Source: Bacteroidales bacterium
Lineage (GTDB): Bacteria > Bacteroidota > Bacteroidia > Bacteroidales > UBA932
Direction: 5' to 3'
NCBI GenBank assembly: GCA_017412645.1
Contig: JAFPWX010000017.1
Span: 62,001 to 126,000, forward strand
DNA length: 64,000 bases
Within the stretch, counting starts at the first letter, position 1. Every line of letters begins with the position of its first letter. This document shows positions 30,410 through 55,977 of this stretch, piece by piece. A program made the position numbers and the translations under genes. The notes beneath the pieces were generated by a model. The model made no database searches and had not been told where the DNA came from. It saw nothing but the letters and a program-made list of their open reading frames with translations.

Positions 30410-32281
30410 TTAGTCGATGGTGACGACGTATACTTTTCCAGCGTTTTGATCCGTTATATAGAGTTTAGAATAATCGCTGTTAAAGACCATACTTCCGACA
30501 GTATTCAATGCGGCATCAGCACCTGATCCATCCTTGGGGGTTGTAGAGCCATTGGTTATTATCGTTGTGATTACGGCGTCCGACCACCCGCCAGGGCCAA
30601 AAGTAATCTTTCTGATTGCAAATTGGTCGCCAATATAAAGATTGCCAACACCATCAAATGCCAAACCATAAAGATTACCGGTAAATGTTGCACTTGATAC
30701 CGGGCCGTCCACCATTGAGGCGAAGTCGGTTGCTTTTGTCCCCGTTCCGGCAACGGCAACAGGAGCGCCTCCTGCATTCGGAACCTTAAACAACTTGAAT
30801 CCGTTATCCGCAGTTGCAACTATAAAGTCTCCATTGCTGTCCGTCGTGAAACTGATGGGTTTCACTTTGCTGAGGCTTCCGGAATTGAAATCACCGTGCT
30901 TGGTTTTAGTCCCGGTTATTCCTTCGGAATACTTAAATAATCCATATGCATCACGTATAACCACAAAGGCATCTGAACCGTTGAATGTAATCATCATTGG
31001 GCTGTAGTTTCCGGTAGAGATTCCGGAATAGGTAATCTCTTTCGTCGAAAGATTATCACAGGTATACAAACGACCCTGACTCTTGTCTACGATATACAAC
31101 GTACCATTATGATAGCAACCTCCCCATGGAACGGCCTCTGTTGAAATAGTGTTATATGTTTGCTTCTCAACAGTTTTTCCTTTCAAATCAACAAACATAA
31201 CAGCATCTGATTGGTCGAAAACAACCGCGTCGTCATCTGATATCATAACCATGCCTCGAGGTGCAAACAACTTCGTCTCCACAAATGAACCCGTAACATG
31301 AGATGTCTTGTTTGATGCTCTTCCAGCAGAGCCAATCAATGTCGTCAAAGTGTACTTCGTCAGCGATATCGCCTCCATAGGCTTTATGTGGGCGCGCTCG
31401 ATTTGAACATTAGATGCCGAACGGAGGGAGCCTGGGACTTCTGTGCCATCGGCAAAGGTCAGGCATATTTTCAGGGTAGGATAAACATTCTTTTCGCTTA
31501 CCACAGTCGGTCCTACAGGAAGAGGCACATAGGCTGTGATTCCATCATCAGAAGCACGCTGAGCAGCCGTAGCAGAATTAATGTCTATCTTTACACTGTA
31601 TTCATTGGTCTTACCATTGTTATACGCCTTAAAATATGGCTTTTCCAATGTGAAGCCTGCACCGTCTTCCCAACCATAAATACCTCCGGGCCCCATGGTC
31701 TGGCTGATTTTGTAATAGTGGGTGGCATCTATGGGCGCGGTTACTTTAATATATCTCGCTTTTGGCGGCACATTCTTGTAGGTAACCTTGAGCAATCCTC
31801 CCATGTGTGTAAACTGAAGATCCTGACCGGAAACCACTTTGGCAATCATCGGAGCCTGGACGGTTCCTTCGCTCCACGTATATGTGGTTTTGAGGCATAG
31901 TTTCAGTATTCCTTCATCAATCTTGGGACACCCGTCCGAAACGTAATTCGGATAGACCGCATACGACTCGTCTCCGTAGGTGATATTGTCTTCTGTCTCA
32001 GCCTCGAAAGTAACAGAAGCCGAGCTGGCGCCCGTAACATTATTAAACACGGTATAACCGGATGAATTGTCGCTGCGGACAAGAATGGCATCATCCGCAT
32101 CCCATTCAAAGGTGCTTCCGTCGAAGAAAGTCCTGGTTTCGCCGGGAGCGAAGCAGGCGGTGAGGGTCTGGACGTTGCCGGCAGCATTATCGGAACCGGC
32201 GGGAGCATAGTCTTCCCTGGCGCAGGAGGCGAGCAGGGAGAGGGCGGCAACTGCCGCGAAGAACAATAATGTCTTTTTCAT
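30410..32281 (-). CDS. Fimbrillin-like/NHL-propeller lipoprotein
   Basis: A 623-residue predicted lipoprotein (MKKTLLFFAAVAALSLLASC). The N-terminal third (about 25-310) looks fimbrillin-like, with GETRTFFDGSTFEWDADDAI and SYAVYPNYVSDG. The C-terminal part (about 315-620) is an NHL-repeat beta-propeller, shown by repeated blades such as VGNLYIGDQFAIRKI and YSKLYITDQNAGKVYVVTI. No enzyme motif is visible. It has the same layout as the 899-residue NHL-EEP protein encoded upstream but lacks the EEP part. I chose the ATG at 32279-32281 because it starts the lipoprotein signal; a 46-aa gene precedes it by 14 bases. Confidence 0.78.
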   Translation of the reverse strand: MKKTLLFFAAVAALSLLASCAREDYAPAGSDNAAGNVQTLTACFAPGETRTFFDGSTFEWDADDAILVRSDNSSGYTVFNNVTGASSASVTFEAETEDNITYGDESYAVYPNYVSDGCPKIDEGILKLCLKTTYTWSEGTVQAPMIAKVVSGQDLQFTHMGGLLKVTYKNVPPKARYIKVTAPIDATHYYKISQTMGPGGIYGWEDGAGFTLEKPYFKAYNNGKTNEYSVKIDINSATAAQRASDDGITAYVPLPVGPTVVSEKNVYPTLKICLTFADGTEVPGSLRSASNVQIERAHIKPMEAISLTKYTLTTLIGSAGRASNKTSHVTGSFVETKLFAPRGMVMISDDDAVVFDQSDAVMFVDLKGKTVEKQTYNTISTEAVPWGGCYHNGTLYIVDKSQGRLYTCDNLSTKEITYSGISTGNYSPMMITFNGSDAFVVIRDAYGLFKYSEGITGTKTKHGDFNSGSLSKVKPISFTTDSNGDFIVATADNGFKLFKVPNAGGAPVAVAGTGTKATDFASMVDGPVSSATFTGNLYGLAFDGVGNLYIGDQFAIRKITFGPGGWSDAVITTIITNGSTTPKDGSGADAALNTVGSMVFNSDYSKLYITDQNAGKVYVVTID

Positions 32282-32295
32282 AACCTTACCCTTCA

Positions 32296-32436
32296 TTAAT
32301 CCCATGAACCCTCTGAATCGGTTGTCCATTCTTCAAGTCCCTGAGAAGAATCTGTCGGCAGGTCCGACGCACAAAACACCCCTCCCGTCAGAAGTACCTC
32401 TTCCACGGCAGGAGCGAGATAAATTGTTTTTTTCAT
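32296..32436 (-). CDS. Small protein (46 aa) in the EEP/NHL locus
   Basis: A short ORF with ATG at 32434-32436 and TAA at 32296-32298. The product begins MKKTIYLAPAVEEVLLTGGV and ends EEWTTDSEGSWD: a basic start, a short hydrophobic stretch with one Cys, and an acidic tail. Small proteins with this MKK-x-Y-x-x-P-x-x-E pattern are common in Bacteroidales genomes next to fimbrillin and surface-protein genes; I know no function. It fits the operon: 27 bases after the NHL-EEP gene and 14 before the next lipoprotein gene. Confidence 0.65.
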   Translation of the reverse strand: MKKTIYLAPAVEEVLLTGGVFCASDLPTDSSQGLEEWTTDSEGSWD

Positions 32437-32463
32437 AGTGATAATAAATTGATTATTAGATGA

Positions 32464-35163
32464 TTAGTTCACAATAAATTCTATAGTTACCGGCCAGTGG
32501 TCGGAGGGCATAACATCGTCGTAATTGCGACGTATCACCCGGTAGGACGCCGGAACAAGGCCCCATTTGAAATAGATGTCATCCATGCGATGATACCACT
32601 TGGCCGCCTGTTCATCGGTATCGGTCCAGGCGTTATAAGTGGCTACGGGACCATATTTCCAGCCAGTGTCAACAAGAAGGTCGTCGTAGTATGCGTCGGA
32701 GAAGAAAGCCTTGAATCTTTCGTTTCCGGCTTCAGTGGTAGCGCTGTTCATATCACCGACCAGGATTGTCGGAATGCTGCCACCGCTGAGAGAGCCGGCC
32801 CTTGCAATTATGAGTTCGGCCGATTTGTCCCTCACGGTCACACAGCGCTCCTCGAGCTCATCCTGAGTAAGGCCGCCGGTTCCGGCAATGCCGGACGAGT
32901 ACACCTCGAGGTGCGTATTCATAAACAGCAGGGTGTTGCCTGTCTGAGTGTCGCGCAGCTTGACCCAGATGCAGATACGGCTGCGCGGAATGGTAACGTC
33001 TATCCACGGCGAGCCAGGTTTCGAATTCGGAGTGTCCGGATTCGGACTCAGCCAGAACTGGCCCCAGTCGAGTTTGGTAAAACGGGAACTCTTCCATGCG
33101 ATGCACGGTTCTTCGTATCCTGATTCCTGGAAAGAGTAAGCGGACAACTGAGACTTGAGATAAGTTCTCTGGTCTGAAGTGGATTCCTGGAAGCCGATCA
33201 CATCGAAACCATAGTCCTGAATCAAACGCGCGACCTTGGTCTTGCGGACCTCCCATGCCCTGTCGCCGGTATCATTACCCGTAATGAAGCGGATATTGAA
33301 AGTTGCCGCCTTCATGCGCGCCTTGGGCGTGATGCCGGCATCGGCGTTTCCGAGGAAAACCTCACGCACCAATCCGCTCTCTTGCTCTGTCACATAGAGT
33401 ATCGATTCGTCGGTGTTCAGCATAAGTCCGCCGATGTTACGGAATGTGGCGGAAGTGCCCACCGCATCGGTTTCGGAACGGGCGGTCGCCTGGGAAGAGC
33501 CGGCAACCGTGGATACTACGGCATCGACATATCCGGTCGGGCCGGGAACAATCTTGCGGACACGATAATGGTCGGCCACGTAAATTGCGCCGCCCGAAGT
33601 GATGGCGATTGCGTTGAGGTTGTTGGTAAACTTGGCGGTGCGAGGCCGGCCTGAAGTGCCGTCGGACATGGTGTTGGCCCCGAGCGTTCCCGCTATCACC
33701 TCCTGTTCGCCGGAGACGGTATTCACCCTTATGACCTGCCCGCCATTTGTAGTGACAATCATGTCGCCATATGGGTCGAAGGCTATGCCCATCGGCCTCT
33801 TGCCGGAGAAACTGTAGGTTGCCGAGGGCTCTGCGGAGAAATCGCCTCCGTCGAAACGGTAAATCGCATAATTGTCCCAGACGGCCAGATAGGCGTTGCC
33901 CTCCGGATCGAACTTCACATCCACCGGGCTCTTGCCCGAATAGCCGCTCCTGACGCTGGTAGCAGTGTGGGATGATACGTCAAATGTGTAAACAGAGCCT
34001 GATGCCTTGTCCGCAAAATAAATCAGTCCGTCTTTATATGCTCCCTTCCAAGGCACGGAAGAGGTACTTCCAAATGTATATGGAGCTGAAACTGTTTTGG
34101 AATCCAAATCCCAGATGCGGACGCTCTGATTCTGGTCCAGAATGAATGCAGTGTGGCCTGGATCGATCCAGCCCATACCACGCGGGCAGCCCATGATAAC
34201 CTCTGAATAGCTGCCTCCGGCCTTCGACGCTGCAGTCGTGGCGCGATTCTTCTTGCCCATAATTGTGGTCACCGAGTACTGGCTTGGGACCCCTACGGTT
34301 GGCATAGGCTTGATTTTGCTCCGTTCTATGTTGAGATTGGTCGCCGTGCGTATCGAACCGGGGATGACAGTGCCCGCGGAATTGGCGAGGCAGACGTAAA
34401 CGGATGGGTAAAGATGATCCGCCCCGGGGCCAACAGGAAGCGGGACGTAGAATTCTTTTTCCGACGAAGATCCAGGGGTGAATTCCACCTTCATGAGGCC
34501 GTTCGACCCCGAACGGGCCTGAAGATAAGGTTTATCAGAGCTGAAGGATCCGTCCCATCCGGTGACGGGTATGGCTGAAGTTGTTTCATAGCCGGGAGTC
34601 ATCACCTTCAGCTGGGCCGCATCGTCCGGGATGTTGGTGTATTCCACGTAAAGCAGGCCGCACATATTTGAGAAACGGAGCGGCTCGCCTGGAAGGACTT
34701 TCGCAATCATCGGAGCCTCGATATTGCCTTCGGACCAGTCGTAACGGTTTTTGAGGTTCAGCGTCATCGTGCCTGCCTCAACCACGCAGTTCTCCTCGGC
34801 AAGCGAAGGATACACTGCGAAACCCCCGGCGCCAAACAGGACTGTTTTCGCAGTTTCCTCGTTCTTTACGAAGGTGACCTCACCGGCCGACGGGAGACCG
34901 GAGTACTTGAAGTCAATGGTACCTCCTTCGGCAGCGGCAACCCGGATACGGTCGTTCGTCATCCAGGAATATACCGAAGACACAAAGGCTGTCTTGTTAA
35001 CGGGTTCGGCAAATAACGCTTTCAGACTGTCGACAGAGACATCAGCGACTTCCTGCTGACTGTCGTCCTGGGTGATTACCGGCTCCTGCTTCGAGCAGGA
35101 AGCCCCAAGTAAAGCAGCGGCAATCAAGATCGCGGCTTGTTTTGCGAATCTGAGTTTTATCAT
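32464..35163 (-). CDS. NHL-propeller lipoprotein fused to an EEP phosphoesterase domain
   Basis: An 899-residue lipoprotein (MIKLRFAKQAAILIAAALLG before the ASC lipobox). An N-terminal fimbrillin-like region (about 30-300) and an NHL propeller (about 305-610, blades such as IYVADHYRVRKIVPG and ESILYVTEQESGLVREV) are followed by a complete endonuclease/exonuclease/phosphatase domain (about 617-899). EEP residues are intact: Asn in ATFNIRF, Glu in VIGFQES, His in FMNTHLEV, Asp and Asn in VGDMNS, and Asp-His in PSDHWPV. The family cleaves phosphodiesters or phosphomonoesters with Mg ions. The three-part architecture is unusual; the propeller may bind substrate. Its stop-start region overlaps the standalone EEP gene by four bases. 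Confidence 0.85.
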   Translation of the reverse strand: MIKLRFAKQAAILIAAALLGASCSKQEPVITQDDSQQEVADVSVDSLKALFAEPVNKTAFVSSVYSWMTNDRIRVAAAEGGTIDFKYSGLPSAGEVTFVKNEETAKTVLFGAGGFAVYPSLAEENCVVEAGTMTLNLKNRYDWSEGNIEAPMIAKVLPGEPLRFSNMCGLLYVEYTNIPDDAAQLKVMTPGYETTSAIPVTGWDGSFSSDKPYLQARSGSNGLMKVEFTPGSSSEKEFYVPLPVGPGADHLYPSVYVCLANSAGTVIPGSIRTATNLNIERSKIKPMPTVGVPSQYSVTTIMGKKNRATTAASKAGGSYSEVIMGCPRGMGWIDPGHTAFILDQNQSVRIWDLDSKTVSAPYTFGSTSSVPWKGAYKDGLIYFADKASGSVYTFDVSSHTATSVRSGYSGKSPVDVKFDPEGNAYLAVWDNYAIYRFDGGDFSAEPSATYSFSGKRPMGIAFDPYGDMIVTTNGGQVIRVNTVSGEQEVIAGTLGANTMSDGTSGRPRTAKFTNNLNAIAITSGGAIYVADHYRVRKIVPGPTGYVDAVVSTVAGSSQATARSETDAVGTSATFRNIGGLMLNTDESILYVTEQESGLVREVFLGNADAGITPKARMKAATFNIRFITGNDTGDRAWEVRKTKVARLIQDYGFDVIGFQESTSDQRTYLKSQLSAYSFQESGYEEPCIAWKSSRFTKLDWGQFWLSPNPDTPNSKPGSPWIDVTIPRSRICIWVKLRDTQTGNTLLFMNTHLEVYSSGIAGTGGLTQDELEERCVTVRDKSAELIIARAGSLSGGSIPTILVGDMNSATTEAGNERFKAFFSDAYYDDLLVDTGWKYGPVATYNAWTDTDEQAAKWYHRMDDIYFKWGLVPASYRVIRRNYDDVMPSDHWPVTIEFIVN

Positions 35164-36122
35164 AGAGAGAAATCTATAAGGATAGGCAGGTGGTCCGACG
35201 GGTGGAAGAAGCTATGGACTTCGATGCTGCGCACCGGAGTGGTATAATCGTCTTCAATTATGTCAGCGCCTGTCACCTTGTTCATCAACGCCGGGGTGGC
35301 GTAAACGAAATCGATGCGGGTGTTGCTCTGGGCCGACCTGAAGAAGCCGTCCGGATGCTTTTCTTTCACCACATCGATGTATGGCGTGTTATCGAGGATG
35401 TAGTCGTGGGTAAGGAAACGGGGGTCGTCTGTCGGGTAACAATAATATGCGTTGTCCTTTCGTGAGACGGAGTTGAAGTCGCCCATCATCAGCCATAAGC
35501 CATCAGAGGCCTTCGGATCGGTAAGAATTGTGTTCCGACATATCAATTCCATCTCTTTCCTGCGGTATTTGTCGCCGCCGTGATTCGCAGCATCGGCTTT
35601 CTGCGCTTCCTTGGAAGCAGTTTTAAGCCGAAAGTCGCAGGACATGGGGCTGGAGTGAAGAGTCACTATGTTCAGGGTTTTACCCCTTACCCTGAGTTTA
35701 GCCCAAGCGGCACCGTGAACGATAATCGAATCGGGTGCCGAGCCCGTTATACGGGAAATGTTTTTGATTGGATAGCGCGATGTTATCACCTGTGGATAAC
35801 TGTCGCGGTGCGCCCCCACGTAAATGTACCGGTGACCGTAACGGCGGGCGAGCTTCTTCCACCCGCCCACCAGATAACGGTCTTCCGCCGACAGTTTATT
35901 GTCGGTGCCTGTCTTGTAGATGGTTTCGGCTTCGCACCAGACGCAGATGTCCGGCCTGCGCTCCTTCACCCAAGAGACAAAGGCATTGTAGTTGTCCTCC
36001 TGCCCCGACCACATTCCGTTCTGGATATTCCAGTACAGGAGCCGGAGCGGCTTTTCGCCGCCCCAACTCACAGCACTGAAACACAGCACTAAAAACGTGC
36101 AGAGTGTCAGGATTCTTTTCAT
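35160..36122 (-). CDS. Secreted endonuclease/exonuclease/phosphatase (EEP) family protein
   Basis: A 320-residue single-domain EEP enzyme with a cleavable signal peptide (MKRILTLCTFLVLCFSAVSW). Catalytic motifs are intact: LYWNIQNGMWSG (Asn), CVWCEAETIY (Glu), TLHSSP (His), MMGDFNS (Asp/Asn), RIDFVYATP and HPSDHLPILI (Asp, His). The family includes DNase I, sphingomyelinases and inositol phosphatases, so the substrate is not fixed by fold. The NIQxGMWSxQ block also occurs in the 820-residue protein of the same locus, marking the two as close paralogues. It lies three bases after the IPT/NHL gene. Confidence 0.88.
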   Translation of the reverse strand: MKRILTLCTFLVLCFSAVSWGGEKPLRLLYWNIQNGMWSGQEDNYNAFVSWVKERRPDICVWCEAETIYKTGTDNKLSAEDRYLVGGWKKLARRYGHRYIYVGAHRDSYPQVITSRYPIKNISRITGSAPDSIIVHGAAWAKLRVRGKTLNIVTLHSSPMSCDFRLKTASKEAQKADAANHGGDKYRRKEMELICRNTILTDPKASDGLWLMMGDFNSVSRKDNAYYCYPTDDPRFLTHDYILDNTPYIDVVKEKHPDGFFRSAQSNTRIDFVYATPALMNKVTGADIIEDDYTTPVRSIEVHSFFHPSDHLPILIDFSL

Positions 36123-36125
36123 AGT

Positions 36126-38000
36126 TTATTCTGCAACGACAGAAATCTTGCGGATGCGATGCTTGTTGCCGTCAGCAACATAGATGTTTCCGGTCTTCGG
36201 ATCCTTCACAAGTTGGCCAAGCTGACCGAACTTTGCTTCCGCCCCTGCTCCGTCAGCAAGACCAGACTGCATAGGAATACCCGCGAGGGTCTTTATAATA
36301 CCCTTGGTGTAGTCATTTCCAACACCGGGGATAAGAACTCGGACTGTATAGGAATGCCAGTCGTTGAAATAGATGCAACCATCTTTGTCCCAGTATAAAC
36401 CGGTAACATTCCCTATAGGAGTTTCAAGAGGTGCACCATCTACAAAGGTTGCTGTCGTCGGGTTGGCGGTACCATTACCAGCAACAGTAGTAATGTCTCC
36501 ACTGGCAAGGTCCATGACAAGAATCTTCTTTCCTCCGTTAGTACCGACTACAATCTTTGTCTTGTCCGGATTGAAAGCTATTGTGTAAGGCTGAATACCA
36601 TTAAGGTCATATTCCTTATCAAAACCAACAATCTTTCCCTCGTTAATCTTATCTTCCGTCACATAGATTTTAATAATCGATTTCGTATCGCGACTTGCGA
36701 TGTACATATTGTCGGAGTCATCAAATATTACATTCATCGGGCTCTTGATCGCAGTTGCCGTGTTGTCGGCATTGAAGATTGAGAATTCAGACCAAGTGCT
36801 ATTCACATAGCGGCCAATCAGATTCTTTCCCTTCAGCGCCACATAATAATCTCCCTTCGAATTGAAGTCACCACCCCACGGGAATTTGTCATTACCGATT
36901 GTTTTCTGATCAACTACGATATGCATCTCGTAATTCGAAAGACTTACCCTGTGAACACCGTGCTGACCAGTCGCACCGGAACCTCCACGGCTGGTGATCC
37001 AAAGTTCAGTTCCTTCTGGATTGATAACAATTCCTTCGGGAATAGGGATATTTGCCAAAAGGCCGATTCCTTCTTCAATTTTGGAAGTGCCGGAGGTAAA
37101 GTTACCTACAACGCAATCAACACGATATTTCGCAACCTGATAGAAACGGACGAGACCTGCGGTAACCGGCGCTGCACCCGCTACCTTGATTGTGATCTCG
37201 TAATCCTTGAGGCTCTCAAGACCGGCGGGGACGTCGAACTTGATGCCGTCTTCACCGGAAACGGTTACGGTGGCCTCGGTTTCTCCCACAAGCACGGTGA
37301 CGTCAGCCACGTCATCCGTAAAGCCTGTGCCTTCCACTGTAATCTCGTCGCCCTTGGTCACCATTACGGGTGAAACGGCGCTGACGACAACCTCGCGGTC
37401 GAATACATAAGTGAACATCTGAGGATCGGATGTCTCGTCGCCCTTAAGCACCAGAACGGCCACATCGCCATTCCCTTCGGGAACGATGACGGTGATAGCG
37501 GTTTCGGTGATGGTCTTGATCTCTGCTACAGCCTCTCCGAAGAGAACGGTGACAGCGCTGGGATCGGTGCCGAAATTCTCACCGGAAATAACGACCTCGT
37601 CGCCGATCTTCGCCTCCGTAGGATCGATTCCACTCACTGTCATCGGAAGAACGCGCTTCAGATAGGTGAACGAGATGTCTTCCTTGGAGCTCTTTCCACC
37701 TACGGTAACGGTAATCTTTGCCGCGCCTTCGGGGTTCTCGGGAAGGACGATCTTGAGGGTGGTAGCGGTAGCTTCCTTCACCTCTGCTTCGGCAGTGCCG
37801 ACGACAACCTTGTTGTCAGCAGCGGTGGCGGAGAAGTTCTCACCAGTAATGATCGCCACGTCTCCGGCGTAGCCGCTTGAAGGCTGAATCTTTGTCAGAA
37901 CGGGAGCCTTAGCTTCCTGTTTGCCGGTATCTTCCGGGTCTTTCTGACAGGCGGCGAAAGCCACGATGGCTGCTGCCGCAATCAATAATAACTTTTTCAT
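36126..38000 (-). CDS. IPT/TIG and NHL-propeller lipoprotein
   Basis: A 624-residue lipoprotein (MKKLLLIAAAAIVAFAAC). Three IPT/TIG domains are visible at about 30-110, 115-200 and 205-290, each with the marker type of GYAGDVAIITGENFS, AKIGDEVVISGENFG and VTKGDEITVEGTGF. An NHL-repeat propeller follows (about 300-620), with NIYVADGNKHRIRKISVV at the end. Proteins with this order sit next to SusC/D pairs in many PULs and are taken to be surface glycan-binding proteins (SGBPs). Here it lies within the run of EEP genes and probably binds their substrate at the surface. Confidence 0.85.
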   Translation of the reverse strand: MKKLLLIAAAAIVAFAACQKDPEDTGKQEAKAPVLTKIQPSSGYAGDVAIITGENFSATAADNKVVVGTAEAEVKEATATTLKIVLPENPEGAAKITVTVGGKSSKEDISFTYLKRVLPMTVSGIDPTEAKIGDEVVISGENFGTDPSAVTVLFGEAVAEIKTITETAITVIVPEGNGDVAVLVLKGDETSDPQMFTYVFDREVVVSAVSPVMVTKGDEITVEGTGFTDDVADVTVLVGETEATVTVSGEDGIKFDVPAGLESLKDYEITIKVAGAAPVTAGLVRFYQVAKYRVDCVVGNFTSGTSKIEEGIGLLANIPIPEGIVINPEGTELWITSRGGSGATGQHGVHRVSLSNYEMHIVVDQKTIGNDKFPWGGDFNSKGDYYVALKGKNLIGRYVNSTWSEFSIFNADNTATAIKSPMNVIFDDSDNMYIASRDTKSIIKIYVTEDKINEGKIVGFDKEYDLNGIQPYTIAFNPDKTKIVVGTNGGKKILVMDLASGDITTVAGNGTANPTTATFVDGAPLETPIGNVTGLYWDKDGCIYFNDWHSYTVRVLIPGVGNDYTKGIIKTLAGIPMQSGLADGAGAEAKFGQLGQLVKDPKTGNIYVADGNKHRIRKISVVAE

Positions 38001-38020
38001 TGTTTTGTGTTTTAATAGGG

Positions 38021-46990: not shown

Positions 46991-49453
46991 TTAGTACTTT
47001 ACATCAACCAAAACAGGCCTGTGGTCGGAGGGACGGCAGAAGTAGCCGCTGACGGTATTGTCCTGATACAGCAGGGTCCAGTCGTCAACAATTATCATTG
47101 CGTTCTGCACGCCCTCGTATGCCTTCGGCGTGGCATAAAACATATCCATTCTCTCGAAATCCTTATTTACGGAACTCAGCCAGTTGCCCCGCCAGTACTC
47201 GCCGATTACGTCTATCAGGTTGGAGTTGTTCCTTAGGTAATTCTGGGCGAGATAGTCCGTGTGAGAGGCGCCTTTGTTATAATACCACTCGTCCACGGAA
47301 CTGGGGCAGTTGAAGTCTCCCATCATAAAGAGGTAGTCCACTCCGCTGTAGTCCGAGAGTAGGTTGTTCACAATATTCTTCATCTCGTTCTCGCGTTCTA
47401 TATCACCTTCACGGGCAGCCTGCGACGCCGGGCGCTCGGATTCCGCTATGCCCCTTGCGTAATCTGCCGGCCACAGATGCGTGGACAGGAAATGAAGGTC
47501 CTTGCCGCCGATGGTAACCCGAACCACAGCTGCTCCGTGGGCCACTTCCGATGTCTCCAGCTCCTTCAATTTGGTTATCGGATATTTGGAAGTTATCATC
47601 TCGGGATAGTTGTCTTTCTGACAAGACATGGTATAGTTGTGGCCATAGCGCTTTGCAAGGGCTGGCCATCCGCTTTCGAGGGTACGGGCGCTGCTTTTGA
47701 GCCATTCGCCTTTTTCGTCGTATAAAGAACGGGCCTCGCAGAACACGCAGACATCGGGTTTGTATTTATTGAGCCAGGCGACGAAGTTGTTGTAGTTATT
47801 GGCCTGGTCAGACCACATTCCGCACTGGATATTCCAGTAGAGTATGCGGATTCCGTTCACCGGCGTGCGGCGGTATTTGGCTATAGAGATGCTGACATTG
47901 TCGAGATAGAAACCATGGTAGCCGCCTTCCTCAAGAGCCGTGGTGAGACGGATCTGAGTTGCGTTGTTGACATTCTCCACATACATCACAACATGGCGCC
48001 ACTGCTTTGCGGCGGGAGTGCTGGTGGGAACGGGAACGCTGGCCGCGGAGATGGCCCATCTTCCTCCGCATCCTTCGTACCGGCAGAGTTTGTTGTCAAG
48101 CACGGCCTGCTCCCCGTCAACGGTGACGCTTGAAACGATTCCGCTGTTGTATGTCTCCAGACAGACCTGGTCTTTGAAACCGACACGCGGACAATAGTCG
48201 AAAGAAATCTCCAGATCGCAGAGTTCGCTGATTCCAAGGTCCGGGGCCTGGAAGATGCCCCTCGTGGCGTCAGCGGTTCCAACTCCAAGGTAACCCTGGT
48301 ATTCCTGACAGTGATGCAACAGAAGATAGTCGCCAAGGTTACGGCTTCGGACGTAAGAGCCGCTCATTGAATGATAACCCTCAACTGTCTTTCCGGAAGC
48401 CTGGGACAGGGAGCCGCCCTGAATATATCCGCTGCCTGCCCAGGTATATTCGGCATTCTTGAATGCGTGCTCATAACCGGTCAGGGAGGAGCCGTAACTC
48501 GAAGAAGTCTCAACTCCATCCGGAGAGAATCCGAAGGTAGAGTATCCGCCAACGTAGTCTCCTCCCCACGCGAAATTGTCAAAGCCCTCGTAGAAAAGAA
48601 GGTTTTTGCTTGGAGACCAGTTGGCCTTCGCCTCATATACTTCGCCTGCCTTGAGGCTGGTGACGTTGAGGTCGAGAGTGATTCTCTTATGGGACATGTC
48701 GCATATGTTCAGCTTGAGACCGTCCGGGTATTCGCCGGGGGCGAGGAGAAGGACAAACTGCCCGCCGGAAGAAAGACTTACTCCGGTCCCCCTGTTGGTG
48801 CAGTTAAGCACCGTGAAAGGAAGGGCCTTTGTGATGGAAAGCGTTTTCTTGGACGCCTGGTAGCTGCCAATACCGGAGATTGGCACTCCCGCGTCTATCT
48901 TGATCGAAGAGATTTTTGCGTCTCCGCTCAAGGTCAGCTTTACTGCCGCTACGAGCGGGGTCATCTTAAGCACATTGCCGTCCTCGGAGGAATAGCTGCC
49001 ATAGAGGGGCAGTGCGTCAATGTCCTTAGTGAGACAATGATAGAAGGACATCGGAGGAATCACCACGTTCACGTAGCGCGACAATCCGTAGTACATCGCA
49101 GATTCCTCCCTGTAAAGAACGGCATTGTACGATGCGGCCGCGTCTGCCTCGATGTACGGTTCGCCGTTTTCCGTGAGCAGGATCGGATAATCCACACCGC
49201 TTATGCTCACCCTGAAAGCAGACCAGTCGAAAGTAGAGATTCCTGCGGCTTGGCGCACAGAGTTATCGCTTTCTGCCAGGTAGAAACGCACTTTTCCGTC
49301 CACTACCGTTATCGGATCTCCGGGACGGATGGATTCTTCTGTCTTGTCGTTGATGTCTTCTTTGTTGTTTTTCCCGTTATCCGAAGGTTCCCCTTCGCAG
49401 GCAGCGAAGAGCAGCCCCAGGATAAGAAACGCATATAATCTGTTGTTTTTCAT
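46991..49453 (-). CDS. Multidomain lipoprotein with C-terminal EEP phosphoesterase
   Basis: An 820-residue lipoprotein (MKNNRLYAFLILGLLFAAC). A fimbrillin-like region (about 45-290) is followed by a jelly-roll, CBM-like domain (about 290-525, from NLLFYEGFDNFAWGG to YHGFYLDNVSISI) and an EEP domain (about 533-820). EEP residues are intact: LYWNIQCGMWSD (Asn), CVFCEARS (Glu), FLSTHLWP (His), MMGDFNCP (Asp/Asn), RMDMFYATP and RPSDHRPVLV (Asp, His). It is a paralogue of the 320-residue EEP enzyme, here tethered and joined to binding modules. It directly follows the SusD of the first pair, one base apart. Confidence 0.85.
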   Translation of the reverse strand: MKNNRLYAFLILGLLFAACEGEPSDNGKNNKEDINDKTEESIRPGDPITVVDGKVRFYLAESDNSVRQAAGISTFDWSAFRVSISGVDYPILLTENGEPYIEADAAASYNAVLYREESAMYYGLSRYVNVVIPPMSFYHCLTKDIDALPLYGSYSSEDGNVLKMTPLVAAVKLTLSGDAKISSIKIDAGVPISGIGSYQASKKTLSITKALPFTVLNCTNRGTGVSLSSGGQFVLLLAPGEYPDGLKLNICDMSHKRITLDLNVTSLKAGEVYEAKANWSPSKNLLFYEGFDNFAWGGDYVGGYSTFGFSPDGVETSSSYGSSLTGYEHAFKNAEYTWAGSGYIQGGSLSQASGKTVEGYHSMSGSYVRSRNLGDYLLLHHCQEYQGYLGVGTADATRGIFQAPDLGISELCDLEISFDYCPRVGFKDQVCLETYNSGIVSSVTVDGEQAVLDNKLCRYEGCGGRWAISAASVPVPTSTPAAKQWRHVVMYVENVNNATQIRLTTALEEGGYHGFYLDNVSISIAKYRRTPVNGIRILYWNIQCGMWSDQANNYNNFVAWLNKYKPDVCVFCEARSLYDEKGEWLKSSARTLESGWPALAKRYGHNYTMSCQKDNYPEMITSKYPITKLKELETSEVAHGAAVVRVTIGGKDLHFLSTHLWPADYARGIAESERPASQAAREGDIERENEMKNIVNNLLSDYSGVDYLFMMGDFNCPSSVDEWYYNKGASHTDYLAQNYLRNNSNLIDVIGEYWRGNWLSSVNKDFERMDMFYATPKAYEGVQNAMIIVDDWTLLYQDNTVSGYFCRPSDHRPVLVDVKY

Positions 49454-49454
49454 A

Positions 49455-51182
49455 TCATTCCCAATTGGGGTTTTGAACTACGGCACCGCCGGTCAGAACA
49501 ATGTCGTCAGTGGGTATGGGGAAGAGATAATCCCTGTCTTCCCTCCAGTTGCGCGGGACGTTTGAGAAACGCACGATATTTCCGCTCGTCCCCTCGGTAA
49601 GCGAAAGGTCGTCTATGTTGGAATAAGCCATTCCGCTTTCAACGGCTGGGGCTTCTCCGGAATAGATACAGAAGTCGTCGGTGCCACTACCGTCGAGGTC
49701 GTAGGAGCCGGGGCCTGGGAAATACATTCCCCTGAACGGGCGGTCGAAGCGTTTACCTTCTTTCCATCGCATAATATCCCAGTAGCGGAAGCCCTCACAG
49801 ATGAGCTCGATGGTCCTTTCCCTGCGTATCTCCAGTATCACGCCTTTGTGGGCTCCGGTAACGTTCTTGTATCCGGTAAGGGGATTGGAAAGGAACGGGT
49901 CCGGATCGGAATCGGCCGCAGCAAGAATCAGCGGTGGCATTCCGGCACGGGCGCGAAGCAGGCAAACCGTAGCATCGAGGTCGTCCTGGGTGATGGTTCC
50001 AAGCTCCGCCTTCGCCTCCGCATAGTTCAGATAAGTTTCTGCTATACGGAAAAGAGGAAGGTCATTTTCGGATGTGTTGGAGATATCGTACTTCGGCTCT
50101 CCCACATACTTCACGATCTGGTATCCGGTGAGGGTGGCGTTCATATCTGGAGCAACCCAAACCTTGCTGCCCACGCGTGTATACCCCGGAGTGCGTATGG
50201 TCTGAGAAAGGCGCGGGTCTCTGTTCTGGCATTCCTGTATGAAGCTCATCGTGCCAAAACCGGGGATATCGGTAAAGCGGCTTCCGTCTGCATTGAGGTA
50301 GCTGTCCACAATATCTTTCAATACCCCGGAACGCCCCATTGTAGTGGATGTAAAATAGTCGTTCACGTTGTGGGTGATACACATTGAAAGGCCGTAAGCC
50401 TGGGAGAGTATCACTTCCTGCCTGATGGTTTTCAAACTGCGGAAAAGGTCTCCGTAGGGAGTGTCTCCCGCGGTGTACAGGGAATAACCGCCGTTTTCCA
50501 TGAGTTCCCTGCTGGCATTCACACACTCCGCCAGACAGTCTTCCCACCCGGAAATGCCGTGGTACTTGCGGAAGGTGCCTTCGAAAAGGAAGATGCGGCT
50601 TTTCAACGCAAGCGCCGTCCAGCGGGTCACCCTGTAGTCTTCGTGCCTGTCGGGAAGGACAGATGCGGCCTCGTCGATATCGGACAGTACGTGCTGCATG
50701 ATGAGGACCCTGGAATCCCTTCCTTTGTACAGGTTGGCGTCGTTCGTTCCGAGAGTATGCTCGAACCACGGCACGTCGCCGAATCGCCGCACTTTGTCGT
50801 AGTAGAACCACGCCCGGAAGAACTTCGCGAGTCCAACGTATTCCCTGCGAGCTGAAGTGTCGCTGCACTGGTCGGCGCGCTCGAGGAAGAAATTGATGTC
50901 GCGCAGGTCGCCCCATGTCCAGTGACTGTCTTTTGACGATACGAAACGGGAACCGCGGACCTCGGGGGCGAGAGTGCTCTTGATGATGATGTCGGCCCCT
51001 TCGTTGAAGATGTCCATGCCCGACGGCAGCATGCGGTAGAACTGGTTTGTGTAGAGCCGGCACTGCTCCTCGTCCTTAAAGAACTCTCCGACCGGCAGGG
51101 CATCTTCGGGTTCCCTGGTAAGGAAATCCGAGCAGGCGGTGAGAGCCAGGAGGCTTGCGATTATGAGAAGTCGTCTTGCCAT
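49455..51182 (-). CDS. SusD-like outer-membrane lipoprotein (first pair of the ECF locus)
   Basis: A 575-residue SusD/RagB protein. The signal MARRLLIIASLLALTAC is followed by SDFLTREPEDALPVGEFF, the usual SusD opening. The conserved AKFFRAWFYYDKVRRFGDVP and LALKSRIFLFEGTFRKYHG TPR segments and the C-terminal RERTIELICEGFRYWDIMRW block are present; it ends VVQNPNWE. It pairs with the STN-bearing SusC encoded four bases upstream. It is longer than the other SusD proteins in the window. Confidence 0.93.
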   Translation of the reverse strand: MARRLLIIASLLALTACSDFLTREPEDALPVGEFFKDEEQCRLYTNQFYRMLPSGMDIFNEGADIIIKSTLAPEVRGSRFVSSKDSHWTWGDLRDINFFLERADQCSDTSARREYVGLAKFFRAWFYYDKVRRFGDVPWFEHTLGTNDANLYKGRDSRVLIMQHVLSDIDEAASVLPDRHEDYRVTRWTALALKSRIFLFEGTFRKYHGISGWEDCLAECVNASRELMENGGYSLYTAGDTPYGDLFRSLKTIRQEVILSQAYGLSMCITHNVNDYFTSTTMGRSGVLKDIVDSYLNADGSRFTDIPGFGTMSFIQECQNRDPRLSQTIRTPGYTRVGSKVWVAPDMNATLTGYQIVKYVGEPKYDISNTSENDLPLFRIAETYLNYAEAKAELGTITQDDLDATVCLLRARAGMPPLILAAADSDPDPFLSNPLTGYKNVTGAHKGVILEIRRERTIELICEGFRYWDIMRWKEGKRFDRPFRGMYFPGPGSYDLDGSGTDDFCIYSGEAPAVESGMAYSNIDDLSLTEGTSGNIVRFSNVPRNWREDRDYLFPIPTDDIVLTGGAVVQNPNWE

Positions 51183-51186
51183 GTCG

Positions 51187-54100
51187 TCAGAAAGTAAGTG
51201 TTATGCCGAGCGAGAACACCCTGTACCAAGGATAGGTGTTGCCGTTGCGGTCGCCGTCGGCCGAAATCTGCTCGGGGTCGATATAGTCGCCGTGCACGGC
51301 GCTCCAGGTGAGGAGGTTTTCGCCGCTCAGGCAGATTCGGGCGTTGGATATGCCGGTTCGGGACAGGCTCTTTGCGGGCAACGTATAGCCGACCGACAGA
51401 TTCTTCAACCGCAGGTATGCCAGGTTCTGCAGGTAGCGGGAATTGGTGTAATAGAGGGAGCCGCCTGTTGCATTGAGGGCCGCGTATCCTCTTGGACGCG
51501 GGAAGTAGGCATCCGGATTTTCCTCCGACCATACGTCATCCATGAAGCCTTTGGGAACGAACGAGGCATAAGGCCGGCAGTATGGACCCCAGAAACGCAT
51601 GTTTTCGTGGCCCGGATACCAGTCCATGTGGCCTATTCCCTGGAAAAATGCCTGTGCGTCCCATCCGTTCCAGGCCACATGGAAACGGAAACCGTAACTC
51701 CAGCGGGGAAGGCTGTTGCCTATAACCTCCAGGTCTCCGTGGTCGTCCAGGGTGTTCTTCCCGGCATCGATAACCCCGTCTTTCTTAAGGTCCACGTATT
51801 TCATGTCTCCTCCTCGCACTCCTCGTGATGCCTCGTTGAAGGAGTAGTAATAGCCGGGGCTCACCTGCGACATGTCAACCTCCGCAGCATAAGCCGCCGC
51901 TTCCGCATCGTCTGCAAAAAGACCGTCCACCCTGTATCCCCAGATTTCCCCGAGTCGGCGGCCTGGATAGGGTTCCGACAGAAGGCCTGACGGGTTGTCG
52001 CAACGCGTATAGGTGGAAATATAGTCGGACAGAGTGGCGCTGGCCCCATAGGAAAATGGCTTTCCGAGAAGCTGCGCCGAGTTGTTCCACTCTATAGAGA
52101 ATTCGCACCCGCGCGTGCGTATGTCGTGGGCATTCACCATCGGCTCGGAGGCTCCGTAGAACGATGGCAACAGCGGCCCGGAAGTGAGGATACCAAGCGC
52201 GTCCCGAATATAGAAATCCCCGGTGAGTCGCAGCCTTCCTCCGAAGAATCCGAGATCGGCCCCCAGGTTCCTGGTCTGTATTGTCTCCCATGTTCCGGTG
52301 GACACGGGGTCGTCGGCCTCAGCGTAACGGCTGCGCGTTTCGCCGTCGAAGGAATAATTCATGGTTCCTCCTGTCCGGATTGTCTGCCAGTAGGCATATT
52401 CGTTTATGGACTGATTCCCGAGAGAACCCACTGAAGCACGCAGTTTGGCCTGGGCAATCACCGGGAGCAGCGGAGCCCAGAACGGCTCTCCGCTGAGCTG
52501 CCATCCGAGCGAAACTGACGGGAACAGGCCCCACTTCTTGCCTTCCGGGAAACGGGAGGAGCCGTCCAGACGGCCGTTCGTCTCCACCAGATAACGGCCC
52601 TTCCAATCGTAGGATAAACGGTAGAATACGCCCATCAGACTGTATTCCCGCACTCCGCCGTTAAGGCGCTTGAGTTCTCCGGTGGCAAGGTTAAAGTCGG
52701 ACATGGTTTCCGAAAGCAGGTCTTTGCGCTGCACCGTAAGCGCGGTCCTGCGCCAGTCTTCGTAGTTTACGCCGGCTACGGCCGTGAGATGATGCCCTTT
52801 CCGGAAATGACCTTCGTAGGTAAGGAATGCATCCACGGAGTTCCTGCGCAGGCGGTTGTCCCTTTCTGAGAGATAGTCTTCGTAGGCGTTCTCCGGCTCA
52901 TACGCGGTTTCGCCCGGATACATCGAATAGGAGGCCGGGGCGCTGCGGAACAGTTTCTGGACGGTGGAGGAATGGTAGGTCCAGGATGTCTTGAACACCA
53001 ACCCCGGGAGGATGTCCGCAGTAAGGTCCAGGGTGTTGTAACTCTGTTCGTCGGAATTGCTCCCGCCCGTGTTTCCGCTGCGTATCATGGAATTGTAGCC
53101 CGACATAATGTAGTGGGCCGAAGAATTGGTGAGGACGGTGTGTGACACGGTGGTTCCGTCGGGATTCTCCGGGACAAAGGAAGGTAGGGCGTGGATGGTT
53201 GGCCGGTAGAAATTGATATACTGCGACTCGAGCCCAAGGTAGGAGTAGTCTGACTGGTAGAAGCGCACGCTGTAGCCCAGCGCGAGCCAACTGCGAAGCT
53301 GCATCTGAACCCTGCTGGACAGGGTGTAGGAACGGAAACGGTCTGGCCCGTGGCGCTGGATGCCCCGCTGGTCGTAATAGCGGCCGCTGAGCTTGTAGGA
53401 AATGCGGCGCGAGCCTCCGGTTATGTCGATGTTGTAGTCCTGCGTGGGGCGGGATTCGTCGTACAGGTAACGATACCAGTCGTAGTTGGCAAGATAGGTA
53501 TAGGAAGGAATGCCATCCCTGGTTTCCCGAACAACCCACGGCCTTTCCGCAACTTCCTTTTTGTCGCCCCGACGTTCATAAAGCCGCTGGTAATCATAGT
53601 CGGTGTATTTTGTGTACGGAATGCCCGAAACCGAGGTGAGCATGAAGGTGTCCGCCAGTTTGGCGGCATCATAGCCCCTTGTTTCGTAGTCGGTGGAAAC
53701 GGTGTTGGCCGAAAGGGAATACCGGGCGTTGAAAACGACCTTGGACGCCATATCCTTCTCCCCGCCGCGAGTTGTGATGAGTATCACTCCGAAGGCTCCG
53801 CGTATTCCGTAGATGGCCGAGGACGAAGCGTCCTTCAGCACTGAGATGGATTCTATATCGGACGGGTTGACGCTCATCGGATCGGTCTCCACCCCGTCTA
53901 CAAGAATCAGCGGATCCCCGCCGTTGAGGGAGGTCTTTCCCCTGATGTTGTACAGTGATATCGCTCCCGGCTGACCGGACTCCTGAAGGATGTTGAGGTT
54001 GCCCACCATTCCCTGCATAACCTGGCCCACTCCGGAAACCGGACGGTCTTTGAGTTCCTTTCCGGCAAGCACGGAGACTGCCCCTGTGACATTGGCCTTC

Positions 54101-54534
54101 TGCTGCACGCCATAGCCCACGACCACCGACTCTTTTAACCAGTTAACCATGGGCAGAAGCGGATGCAGCTGCAACGAATCCGCTTTGTCCGGAACGTCCG
54201 GACTGTCGTCAGATGTGGGGGGTAACTCGGCTCTCTTGCGCTCGGGCACAAGGATTATCCGCTCTTCGAGGATGATGCAGCGTATGCCCGGAAGCACGCT
54301 TCGCAGCACTTCTTCGAGCTGAACCCCTTTCACGTGGACGGACACCTTGGCCTCCACGTCGATTTCGTTGTTGCTGTAGAAGAATGCAAGTCCCGTCTCC
54401 TCTTCGATGTTGTAGAGCAACTCCCGAATGCTCACGTTGTCCAGATCGAGCGAGAGCTTCTGAGCCGACAGGCCGGTCCAGAAGGCTCCGGCCAGCAGCA
54501 GGAAGAAGGAGAGTATGACGGTCTTGCGGAGCAT
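51187..54534 (-). CDS. SusC-like TonB-dependent transporter with STN signalling domain
   Basis: A 1115-residue transporter and signal transducer. After the signal peptide (1-25, ending GLSAQ) a secretin/TonB short N-terminal (STN) domain spans 26-97 (LDLDNVSIRELLYNIEEET); it would contact the FecR protein encoded directly upstream. A linker of only about 35 residues leads to the TonB box KESVVVGYG (134-142), plug (LYNIRGKTSLNGGDPLILV, SSAIYGIRGAFGVILITTR) and barrel ending FSLGITLTF. The carboxypeptidase-regulatory-like domain normally placed between STN and TonB box is missing. Its ATG shares the last base of the FecR stop region (54534). Confidence 0.93.
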   Translation of the reverse strand: MLRKTVILSFFLLLAGAFWTGLSAQKLSLDLDNVSIRELLYNIEEETGLAFFYSNNEIDVEAKVSVHVKGVQLEEVLRSVLPGIRCIILEERIILVPERKRAELPPTSDDSPDVPDKADSLQLHPLLPMVNWLKESVVVGYGVQQKANVTGAVSVLAGKELKDRPVSGVGQVMQGMVGNLNILQESGQPGAISLYNIRGKTSLNGGDPLILVDGVETDPMSVNPSDIESISVLKDASSSAIYGIRGAFGVILITTRGGEKDMASKVVFNARYSLSANTVSTDYETRGYDAAKLADTFMLTSVSGIPYTKYTDYDYQRLYERRGDKKEVAERPWVVRETRDGIPSYTYLANYDWYRYLYDESRPTQDYNIDITGGSRRISYKLSGRYYDQRGIQRHGPDRFRSYTLSSRVQMQLRSWLALGYSVRFYQSDYSYLGLESQYINFYRPTIHALPSFVPENPDGTTVSHTVLTNSSAHYIMSGYNSMIRSGNTGGSNSDEQSYNTLDLTADILPGLVFKTSWTYHSSTVQKLFRSAPASYSMYPGETAYEPENAYEDYLSERDNRLRRNSVDAFLTYEGHFRKGHHLTAVAGVNYEDWRRTALTVQRKDLLSETMSDFNLATGELKRLNGGVREYSLMGVFYRLSYDWKGRYLVETNGRLDGSSRFPEGKKWGLFPSVSLGWQLSGEPFWAPLLPVIAQAKLRASVGSLGNQSINEYAYWQTIRTGGTMNYSFDGETRSRYAEADDPVSTGTWETIQTRNLGADLGFFGGRLRLTGDFYIRDALGILTSGPLLPSFYGASEPMVNAHDIRTRGCEFSIEWNNSAQLLGKPFSYGASATLSDYISTYTRCDNPSGLLSEPYPGRRLGEIWGYRVDGLFADDAEAAAYAAEVDMSQVSPGYYYSFNEASRGVRGGDMKYVDLKKDGVIDAGKNTLDDHGDLEVIGNSLPRWSYGFRFHVAWNGWDAQAFFQGIGHMDWYPGHENMRFWGPYCRPYASFVPKGFMDDVWSEENPDAYFPRPRGYAALNATGGSLYYTNSRYLQNLAYLRLKNLSVGYTLPAKSLSRTGISNARICLSGENLLTWSAVHGDYIDPEQISADGDRNGNTYPWYRVFSLGITLTF

Positions 54535-55334
54535 TACCTGCTTACCTGTACAACCGAAAGAAGGTTTATGGCTTCCAGTATGGCATCAAGCTCTTCGCTC
54601 CTTACGGTAAGGGACAGGAAGATGCCTTTTGCTTCTTCCGGGTCGCTTACAGTGAGGCCAGTGCCGTACCAATGCTCCAGCGCGGAGACAATCTCCGACA
54701 GGGAGCGGTTTTCCAGCACAAGCCTGTCGTTTATCCACGAAGTGTGGCAGGATGCGGGTTCTTCAGAAACTGTCCATTCTCCCCCCTCATAGCACACCTT
54801 CTGGTCGGGAGAAAGCGTGGTTTCAGAAAGGCCGTGGCCCTTTACTGAGATTGACCCTTCTTCGAGCCATGCAGACTGTTCTCCGTCCCCGTAGGCCGAT
54901 ACTGTGAACCTGGTGCCGTGGACGGTTATGTCCATCCGGCCGGTTTCAACCACGAAGGCCCGGGAGTCTTTGGCGACATCGAAAAAGGCCTCGCCTGTGA
55001 GCTTCACCCGGCGCTCCGACTTTCCGAACGATGATTTGTAACTAAGGGAAGAACTGCGGTTGAGCCAGATGGAAGAACCGTCGGGCAGTTCGTAGTGCTG
55101 CTTTTGCCCTTCAGCCACAAGGCGCACAGGGGCATTGTTTTTCACATAAATACCTGTGCCGAGCGCCACAACCATCAGGGCCATGACGGAAGAGATCCAC
55201 GCTCTCCGCGCTTTTCTTACGGCATTTTCCTTCGCTTCCGCCTTTTCCAGTACACTACCGGCAGAGTGCAGCATAGTTGCGTCCATGGGAGTGGAACTAT
55301 TCCACACGTCCATTATATCTTTGTTCTTGTTCAT
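54534..55334 (-). CDS. FecR-type anti-sigma factor
   Basis: A 266-residue inner-membrane regulator. The N-terminal cytoplasmic part (1-45) would hold the sigma factor; a membrane segment follows at about 46-64 (ISSVMALMVVALGTGIYV); the periplasmic part contains the FecR domain (about 75-170, LPDGSSIWLNRSSSLSYKS, RVKLTGEAFFDV, VHGTRFTVSAYGD) and a C-terminal DUF4974 domain (about 195-266), which would contact the STN domain of the neighbouring SusC. It is transcribed divergently from the ECF sigma gene across a 109-base gap. Confidence 0.93.
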   Translation of the reverse strand: MNKNKDIMDVWNSSTPMDATMLHSAGSVLEKAEAKENAVRKARRAWISSVMALMVVALGTGIYVKNNAPVRLVAEGQKQHYELPDGSSIWLNRSSSLSYKSSFGKSERRVKLTGEAFFDVAKDSRAFVVETGRMDITVHGTRFTVSAYGDGEQSAWLEEGSISVKGHGLSETTLSPDQKVCYEGGEWTVSEEPASCHTSWINDRLVLENRSLSEIVSALEHWYGTGLTVSDPEEAKGIFLSLTVRSEELDAILEAINLLSVVQVSR

Positions 55335-55413
55335 ATGCTTGATGGTATTATGTCTCTTTTATATTATGACGGTTTTCTGCGTCCGGATACTTAACCATTT
55401 TGTAAAATAATCT

Positions 55414-55421
55414 TACCTTTG
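55414..55421 (+). promoter_or_regulatory. TACCTTTG -7 box before the ECF sigma gene
   Basis: TAnnTTTG on the plus strand, 22 bases before the TTG start. No TTTG at the usual -33 distance. The divergent FecR-SusC transcript must start elsewhere in the 109-base gap; I see no clear ECF-type promoter for it. Confidence 0.4.
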
Positions 55422-55443
55422 TTTCCGCTAAACGATAACCGAC

Positions 55444-55977
55444 TTGTCTCCGGATAATAATATATTGCTGTCCTGTGCCCACGGGGACAGGCAAGCGTTC
55501 GCCCTGCTGTACGAACGCTATGCTCCCAAGTGCGCAGGTTTCGTCAGGAGTCTGCTGAAAGATCCCGAGGAGGCTGCGGATATCACGCAGGATATCTTCG
55601 TCAGGCTCTGGGTATACCGTTCCCGGCTGCTTCGCATTAATTCTTTCGAGCCCTATCTGATGAATATCGCAAAGAATGCGGTGCTTGACAGATGTGACCA
55701 TATACAGGTAACCCGGAAATTCGCGGAGAACTTCCGGGTTACATTCGATGAGGTATCGGAGGAAACAGCCCGCAGATACGAAGCCGACGAATTTCTTCGG
55801 AGAGTGCAGAAGGCCGTTTCCTGGATGCCGCCTGCAAGAAGGAAGGTGTTCCTGTTAAGCCGTTTTTACGGAATGGACAACAAAAGCATCGCCTCCCTCT
55901 GCGAGCTTTCCGTGAGAACTGTCGAGACACATCTTTTCCACGCCACGCAGTATCTCCGGAAAAAGCTTCTTCCCTAA
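55444..55977 (+). CDS. ECF sigma factor (RNA polymerase sigma-70 family)
   Basis: A 177-residue ECF sigma factor of the Bacteroidales type. Region 2 (about 18-90) has FALLYERYAPKCAGFVRSLL and ADITQDIFVRLWVYR; region 4 (about 115-175) has PPARRKVFLLSRFYGMDNKS and a helix-turn-helix SIASLCELSVRTVETHLFHA. The first usable start is a TTG at 55444, with a stop shortly before it in frame and no ATG until deep in region 2. It diverges from the FecR gene and would turn on the SusC/D-EEP array. Its last four bases overlap the end of the convergent DUF4923 gene. A perfect 11-bp inverted repeat lies inside the coding region at 55708-55742. Confidence 0.92.
   Translation: MSPDNNILLSCAHGDRQAFALLYERYAPKCAGFVRSLLKDPEEAADITQDIFVRLWVYRSRLLRINSFEPYLMNIAKNAVLDRCDHIQVTRKFAENFRVTFDEVSEETARRYEADEFLRRVQKAVSWMPPARRKVFLLSRFYGMDNKSIASLCELSVRTVETHLFHATQYLRKKLLP

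Follow-up and report, generated by a model that had tools for sequence, protein, structure and literature searches.

SusC/SusD loci that carry phosphoesterases together with genes for an extracytoplasmic function (ECF) sigma factor and FecR are already described: in the PusCD complexes of Flavobacterium (PUSI–PUSIV), known to us from their description in PMC8115612, a SusC/SusD pair stands beside ECF/FecR genes and beside phosphodiesterase and phosphomonoesterase genes that replace carbohydrate-active enzymes. Here we analyse a locus at 27249–55977 of a 64,000-nucleotide stretch of DNA (hereafter the window) from a Bacteroidales bacterium of lineage UBA932 (assembly GCA_017412645.1, contig JAFPWX010000017.1, positions 62,001–126,000; genome of 1.80 Mb in 26 contigs), which encodes FecR, an ECF factor transcribed divergently, two SusC/SusD pairs, a DUF5689 lipoprotein and three enzymes of the endonuclease/exonuclease/phosphatase (EEP) family PF03372, all three on the minus strand and here called EEP820 (46991–49453), EEP320 (35160–36122) and NHLEEP (32464–35163). 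A second point of comparison is the polysaccharide utilization locus (PUL) for yeast alpha-mannan, a SusC/SusD locus in which a secreted EEP is accessory to a large set of mannan enzymes. We take the solved structure 4c1r to be that EEP (that is, BT3783, the mannosyl-6-phosphatase of Bacteroides thetaiotaomicron). A third is found in Riemerella, in which, according to the sections of PMC8459023 consulted, a DUF5689 protein essential for natural transformation is encoded beside a CarboxypepD_reg outer-membrane protein. Among open-licence PMC papers, we found no description of a SusC/SusD locus based on EEP or DUF5689 proteins.

The window locus may work like a PusCD or PUL system with a different enzyme set. 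It shares with PusCD the combination of SusC/SusD, phosphoesterase-family and ECF/FecR genes, and with PULs the adjacent SusC and SusD genes (two pairs) and the presence of glycan-active enzymes, namely a glycoside hydrolase (GH) of family GH3 and an SGNH esterase that adjoin the cluster, none having been found inside 30410–55334. The PUSI and PUSII enzymes belong to PF00149, PF16670 and PF00245, whereas the window has EEP enzymes, DUF5689 and TIG/NHL lipoproteins, GH3 and SGNH; the main text of PMC8115612 does not mention PF03372 and lists an orphan ‘Endo/exonuclease/phosphatase’ (Fjoh_0074). The likeness to the Riemerella pair is closest elsewhere in the same genome (G000:C6, L168:4915–9256), where a CarboxypepD outer-membrane protein of 983 aa is encoded beside a DUF5689 protein of 461 aa; in the window, by contrast, the DUF5689 gene does not directly adjoin the CarboxypepD-type gene: SusC2 and DUF5689 are separated by the SusD2 and BACON genes, with EEP genes on either side, and none of these intervening and flanking genes is named for Riemerella in the sections consulted. 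As for the mannan PUL, both NHLEEP and an EEP of a related locus match 4c1r, but the EEP is an accessory there, whereas the window-type loci share the EEP and the only GH detected in the window locus by Pfam is GH3.

We suggest, with confidence just short of even, that the locus serves substrate-sensing SusC/SusD uptake of a polymer with phosphate esters, the likeliest being a glycan that is phosphorylated or joined by phosphodiesters, such as a sugar-1-phosphate glycoconjugate or a teichoic-acid-like polymer. Because EEP genes are conserved beside SusC2/SusD2 (46 of 48 loci) and beside the nearest relatives of SusC1/SusD1 (6 of 6), the locus is best read, in general terms, as capturing a polymer or conjugate that contains phosphorus; an earlier note on this DNA, made from the sequence alone, had proposed as much and had staked the proposal on precisely this conservation.

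With the DUF5689 protein (38021–40399) as the query, 53 loci related to the SusC2/SusD2 core were returned, all in Bacteroidales or Bacteroidia metagenome-assembled genomes (one of them Alistipes; many from the ruminant gut), and the order EEP, lipoprotein, SusC2, SusD2, BACON and DUF5689 recurs in mostly ruminant-gut Bacteroidales. Gene labels in related loci denote similarity to a few query proteins, and unlabelled open reading frames (ORFs) may hide further enzymes. For 48 loci the sequence reaches 8 kb or more upstream. All 48 have a labelled SusC2, 47 a SusD2, 46 an EEP and 42 the lipoprotein LP354, and the EEP is the sole recognised enzyme common to nearly all of these core loci; the two without an upstream EEP are L094 and L101, the latter of which carries an NHLEEP-like gene downstream. 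Clustering at 60% DUF5689 identity gave seven clusters, six of them testable, and the EEP is present in five of the six. EEP820 relatives (E 0.001) occur in 34 of 101 genomes; 33 belong to the same genus (that of the window among them) and the other, G078, to a different family. In G078 the genes for SusC2, SusD2 and DUF5689 are clustered with an EEP relative of weaker similarity (L140). The genome itself holds a paralogous EEP/LP354/SusC2/SusD2/DUF5689 module (G000:C15, L043:1172–18282), beside GDSL and GLUG proteins. Of 20 SusD2-like places at 44% identity or more, at least 16 have DUF5689 within 9 kb, at least 16 have either of two EEP types within 10 kb and at least 14 have both DUF5689 and an EEP; for all 34 SusD2-like places (second fragments left out) the corresponding counts are at least 22, 19 and 14. 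These proximity counts, like those for SusD1 below, are lower bounds, drawn from a hand-picked EEP list of 64 entries (one a duplicate), 42 hand-picked DUF5689 places (short pair-type places and most other-family genomes left out) and 133 SusD1-like rows (most other-family genomes left out). Fifteen further SusC2/SusD2-like loci include two with the phosphodiester glycosidase NAGPA (PF09992; L214, L215), one with an EEP320-type EEP (L228) and four with an EEP of the mannosyl-phosphatase type (L221, L224, L225 and, weakly at about 40 bits, L220). In L225 (G032:C16:384001–404000), a single ORF of 1007 aa matches both a DUF5689 protein and a mannosyl-phosphatase-type EEP, with a second EEP and a GH89-like gene adjoining.

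Around SusC1/SusD1, the closest relative, G045 (75%), has the same arrangement as the window, including the ECF/fecR divergence (L111). SusD1 relatives at 53–59% identity occur in seven places, of which six were examined (L103–L108, leaving out G032:C13, whose score equals that of G032:C5): a PF03372 gene is present in all six and DUF5689 in all five that were scanned for it (L103, L104 and L106–L108), the corresponding gene of L105 being 79% identical to that of L103. The L103 EEP matches mannosyl-6-phosphatase 4c1r at E 1.3e-44, the EEPs of L104–L107 are 46–86% identical to it, and L108 has a different EEP together with GH3 and SGNH. Directly downstream of the SusC1/SusD1/DUF5689/EEP locus of L103 lie genes for an H+-pyrophosphatase and a glucosamine-6-phosphate isomerase/PIG-L protein (L103:12125–16358). 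Farther from SusD1 the link to EEP weakens: at 50% identity, L110 has NAGPA in place of the EEP, and of 133 SusD1-like places at least 25 have a mannosyl-phosphatase-type EEP and at least 9 an EEP820-like EEP within 10 kb.

The kind of polymer is suggested by the company that these importers keep. NAGPA genes lie within 10 kb of 21 of 133 SusD1-like and 13 of 63 EEP820-like places (on the lists used: 133 SusD1 rows, the first 63 of 81 EEP rows and 124 NAGPA rows above the cut-off, with one below it left out), where a rough calculation by hand from the density of NAGPA genes would predict about 1%, and Pfam confirmed NAGPA in all four SusD1-like loci scanned (L039, L040, L041 and L044). Three sister loci (L114, L115 and L141) carry FecR, another SusC/SusD pair and a full-length NAGPA, followed by the TIG/NHL, EEP320, NHLEEP and NHL639 genes of the window; an ECF gene is seen in L114 and L115 (the L141 stretch ends at FecR), and SGNH and GH3 follow NHL639 in L115 and L141 (the L114 stretch ends at NHL639). 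The L114 NAGPA matches human NAGPA (6pki) at E 7e-6. GH89 is present in L080 and, by similarity, a GH89-like gene in L225. In a scan of ORFs around EEP, SusC/SusD, DUF5689 or NAGPA genes (83 of 119, near-duplicates and some others being left out), GH31 (four), histidine phosphatase (three), GH2, GH10 and type I phosphodiesterase (two each) and GH20 (one) are among the 25 families listed first out of 95, and EEP320-like genes adjoin a type I phosphodiesterase (L122), GH31 and WbsX (L125), a histidine phosphatase (L126) and GH2 (L137). The window’s own GH3 (27249–29234) and SGNH (29231–30331) genes look like members of the locus, because, of 43 relatives whose sequence extends 5 kb or more downstream, 16 have both genes there and one has SGNH alone, and because both occur in the sister loci L115 and L141. 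That relatives of the importers occur with mannosyl-6-phosphatase-type EEPs or NAGPA and with GH3, SGNH, GH31 or GH89 favours a phosphorylated or phosphodiester-linked glycan as the substrate. The downstream GH3/SGNH pair had been noticed in the earlier note, which had described the locus as built around phosphoesterases, ‘not glycosidases’; this last part was not supported, as many relatives have GH3 and SGNH with the locus, and GH31, GH89 or NAGPA come in addition in others, although its observation that no GH or polysaccharide lyase occurs between 30410 and 55334 was borne out in the ORFs scanned with Pfam.

All three EEP enzymes were recognised by PF03372 above the Pfam cut-off and have intact residues of catalytic type. 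EEP820 is a lipoprotein (lipobox FAAC) with a C-terminal EEP domain (residues 538–776, E 1e-6); EEP320 lacks a lipobox and is probably periplasmic; NHLEEP is a propeller-like lipoprotein (SGL E 0.005) with a C-terminal EEP domain (PF03372 E 5e-9) of the mannosyl-6-phosphatase type, which matches 4c1r at E 4.3e-15 over residues 618–881 and 3mpr at E 2.8e-15. Eight positions of catalytic type (N, E, H, D, N, D, D, H), presumably the catalytic residues, and the fold are those of the EEP superfamily, and the eight are invariant in 31 of 31 EEP820-type and 15 of 15 EEP320-type rows, in agreement with the intact active sites read from the sequence before. Naming these enzymes from NCBIfam was tried and set aside: none of the three matched the ExeM/NucH family NF033681 at E 0.01, and the search gave just a weak exonuclease III match for EEP320, below the cut-off.

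From the gene content and the lipobox pattern we infer a possible course of events. The surface lipoproteins (SusD1, SusD2, LP354, BACON, DUF5689 and the TIG/NHL proteins) would bind the polymer; EEP820 and NHLEEP, as lipoproteins, would cut or trim phosphoesters outside the cell; the pieces would be imported by SusC1/SusD1 and SusC2/SusD2; and EEP320, SGNH and GH3, all without a lipobox, would act in the periplasm to strip off whatever phosphate, acyl and sugar groups are left. Occupancy of the STN-bearing SusC1 might meanwhile be signalled through FecR to the divergent ECF factor.

Several observations weigh against a glycan, or against phosphoesters as the common denominator. The nearest solved relatives of EEP320 and EEP820, by sequence and by fold, are mostly DNA enzymes, with LINE-1 endonuclease the best match among solved EEPs for both; the EEP820 profile reaches 4c1r weakly (E 0.14), and 4c1r is absent among the matches listed for EEP320 in sequence and profile searches. 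NAGPA is not in the window locus. One SusD1 relative at 51% identity (L109) showed no phosphoester enzyme in the scans, 99 of the 133 SusD1-like places have neither EEP type within 10 kb among the matches listed, and 8 of the 15 further SusC2/SusD2-like loci have no phosphoesterase by the profiles used, three of the stretches being short and none of the 15 Pfam-scanned. Finally, DUF5689, found in 135 of 296 sampled Bacteroidota genomes, is joined in one ORF with an EEP at 30 of 60 places chosen across Bacteroidota (not at random), with a PLD-like domain (a profile of one sequence) at 10 and with neither at 20, the fusions mostly carrying a type IX secretion tail (L150–L209; for example, L150:4086–6668 and L158:3530–6601). 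Four of the fused proteins were scanned: the EEP proteins L150 and L152 are nearest ExeM/NucH, the PLD protein L158 is nearest the nuclease NucT and L156 weakly matches exonuclease III, all four falling below NCBIfam cut-offs.

These observations make nucleic-acid scavenging a serious rival, because nucleases are the nearest relatives of EEP320 and EEP820, and enzymes resembling nucleases are frequent fusion partners of DUF5689 elsewhere; EEP820 would then act as a nuclease at the cell surface, DUF5689, which may have an OB fold, would bind DNA or RNA, SusC2/SusD2 would import oligonucleotides and EEP320 would finish their degradation in the periplasm. The role of the Riemerella protein in natural transformation fits this account, as does the match of the L168 DUF5689 protein to OB family PF01336, a weak one at E 0.0076; the DUF5689 profile found nothing in the PDB below E 0.17. 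The structural model of EEP320 lies near LINE-1 endonuclease, ExoIII and APE1, but APE1 entries are abundant in the PDB and Nocturnin equals the nucleases in Z, such that fold neighbours, tried as an indicator of function, do not separate nucleases from other EEPs; neither sphingomyelinase nor 4c1r was among the 50 neighbours listed, which excludes nothing. Sequence charge was likewise tried as a test of nucleic-acid binding by DUF5689 and SusD2 and did not discriminate, because DUF5689 domains are acidic, including those fused to EEP or PLD. Against nucleic acid, related DUF5689 importers also occur with mannosyl-phosphatase-type EEPs, NAGPA, GH3, SGNH or GH89, and no nuclease or nucleosidase except EEP appears in the first 25 of the 95 neighbouring families. 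In a tree of EEP domains (built without NHLEEP domains and other EEPs of the same genome, which the two profiles do not match), moreover, EEP320 and EEP820 types form one group, split from 12 DUF5689-fused EEPs by long, fully supported branches. On balance we consider nucleic-acid scavenging about half as probable as glycan uptake; among the candidates of the earlier note, a phosphorylated glycan is tentatively placed first and nucleic acid second.

Still less probable is phosphate scavenging of the PusCD type, that is, a SusC/SusD system with phosphoesterases that is induced by phosphate depletion and takes up mixed organic phosphorus. The precedent is close, as the systems of Flavobacterium johnsoniae place SusCD beside phosphodiesterases and phosphomonoesterases with ECF or FecR and respond to phosphate depletion (PMC8115612), but the PUSI and PUSII enzymes belong to the other families named above, and the conserved GH3 and SGNH would better suit use of the substrate for carbon. 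Uptake of phospholipids or lipid head groups, in which the EEP would play the part of a sphingomyelinase or phospholipase C and SGNH that of a lipase, seems very improbable: the EEP and SGNH families include lipid hydrolases, but the NAGPA, GH89 and GH31 of related loci do not fit.

The remaining features of the locus are as follows. On the minus strand the order is FecR, STN-like SusC1, SusD1, EEP820, LP354, SusC2, SusD2, BACON, DUF5689, TIG/NHL, EEP320, NHLEEP, NHL639, SGNH and GH3, followed by a DNA polymerase III alpha gene. FecR (54534–55334; PF04773 E 3e-17, PF16344) is a predicted anti-sigma factor. SusC1 (51187–54534; TIGR04056) has a Plug domain (E 6e-15), and the STN domain attributed to it previously was seen at E 8e-4, below the Pfam cut-off. 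SusD1 (49455–51182; PF07980 E 2e-44) and SusD2 (41352–42839; PF07980 E 2e-22) are lipoproteins, SusC2 (42845–45910; PF13715, Plug, TIGR04056 E 3e-246) is of the CarboxypepD_reg type, and LP354 (45915–46979) is a conserved lipoprotein without a Pfam match. The BACON lipoprotein (40403–41371 from its second ATG, the ORF starting at 41452; PF13004 E 1.5e-9) overlaps SusD2 by 101 bases as an ORF and by about 20 if the second ATG is its start. The DUF5689 lipoprotein has 792 aa (PF18942 E 2.5e-12), the next lipoprotein (36126–38000) has three TIG domains (PF01833 E 9e-38) and a weak NHL match (E 5e-4), and the lipoprotein NHL639 (30410–32329), without a Pfam match, is related to the N-terminal part of NHLEEP. 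The SGNH protein is a GxDLY/GDSL esterase (PF14606 E 6e-33, PF14607; 4lhs E 4e-68) and the GH3 protein is beta-glucosidase-like (PF01915, PF00933; 7ms2 E 1.8e-131).

Most of the architecture given in the earlier note was recovered, with FecR, the SusC/SusD pairs, BACON and the three EEPs confirmed by Pfam. Its ‘three NHL propellers’ are partly supported, because NHL639 has no Pfam match and the NHLEEP propeller is a weak SGL match; BACON and the TIG (IPT) domains were found among its lipoproteins, the ‘CBM-like’ ones being unconfirmed. Its spacing of fewer than 30 bases or overlapping describes most gaps (–4 to 20 bases) but not the 134 and 78 bases flanking NHL639. The ECF gene is present (177 aa, TTG start; recognised from its translation and from ECF-like relatives beside FecR elsewhere), its strand being corrected to plus (55444–55977), divergent from fecR. 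It is adjoined by a lipocalin-like DUF4923 gene (55974–56669), a relative of which lies beyond GH3 in L058 and L112; more long minus-strand ORFs occur at 1–23493 of the window (for example, 9491–12499 and 13767–15953).

We further propose, as a possibility that we hold more loosely than the uptake model itself, a class of Bacteroidales importers marked by the DUF5689 lipoprotein, in which the importer would be kept while three kinds of phosphoester enzyme (EEP320/EEP820, mannosyl-phosphatase-type EEP and NAGPA) swap, providing a dedicated ruminant-gut route for phosphodiester-linked glycans; DUF5689 might then act as a module that recognises phosphodiester chains, one that secreted nucleases and DNA uptake systems would also employ in other branches of the phylum. 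The function of a PUL is ordinarily deduced from the glycosidases or lyases that it encodes, whereas the recognised enzyme shared by nearly all SusC2/SusD2 core loci is a phosphoesterase, and in some related loci other phosphoester enzymes stand beside a related importer. If confirmed, this would point to what DUF5689 and a so far uncharacterised EEP subfamily may do, would advise caution against the default naming of such enzymes as nucleases, and would offer a way to study how phosphorylated polymers serve as food in the rumen and hindgut.

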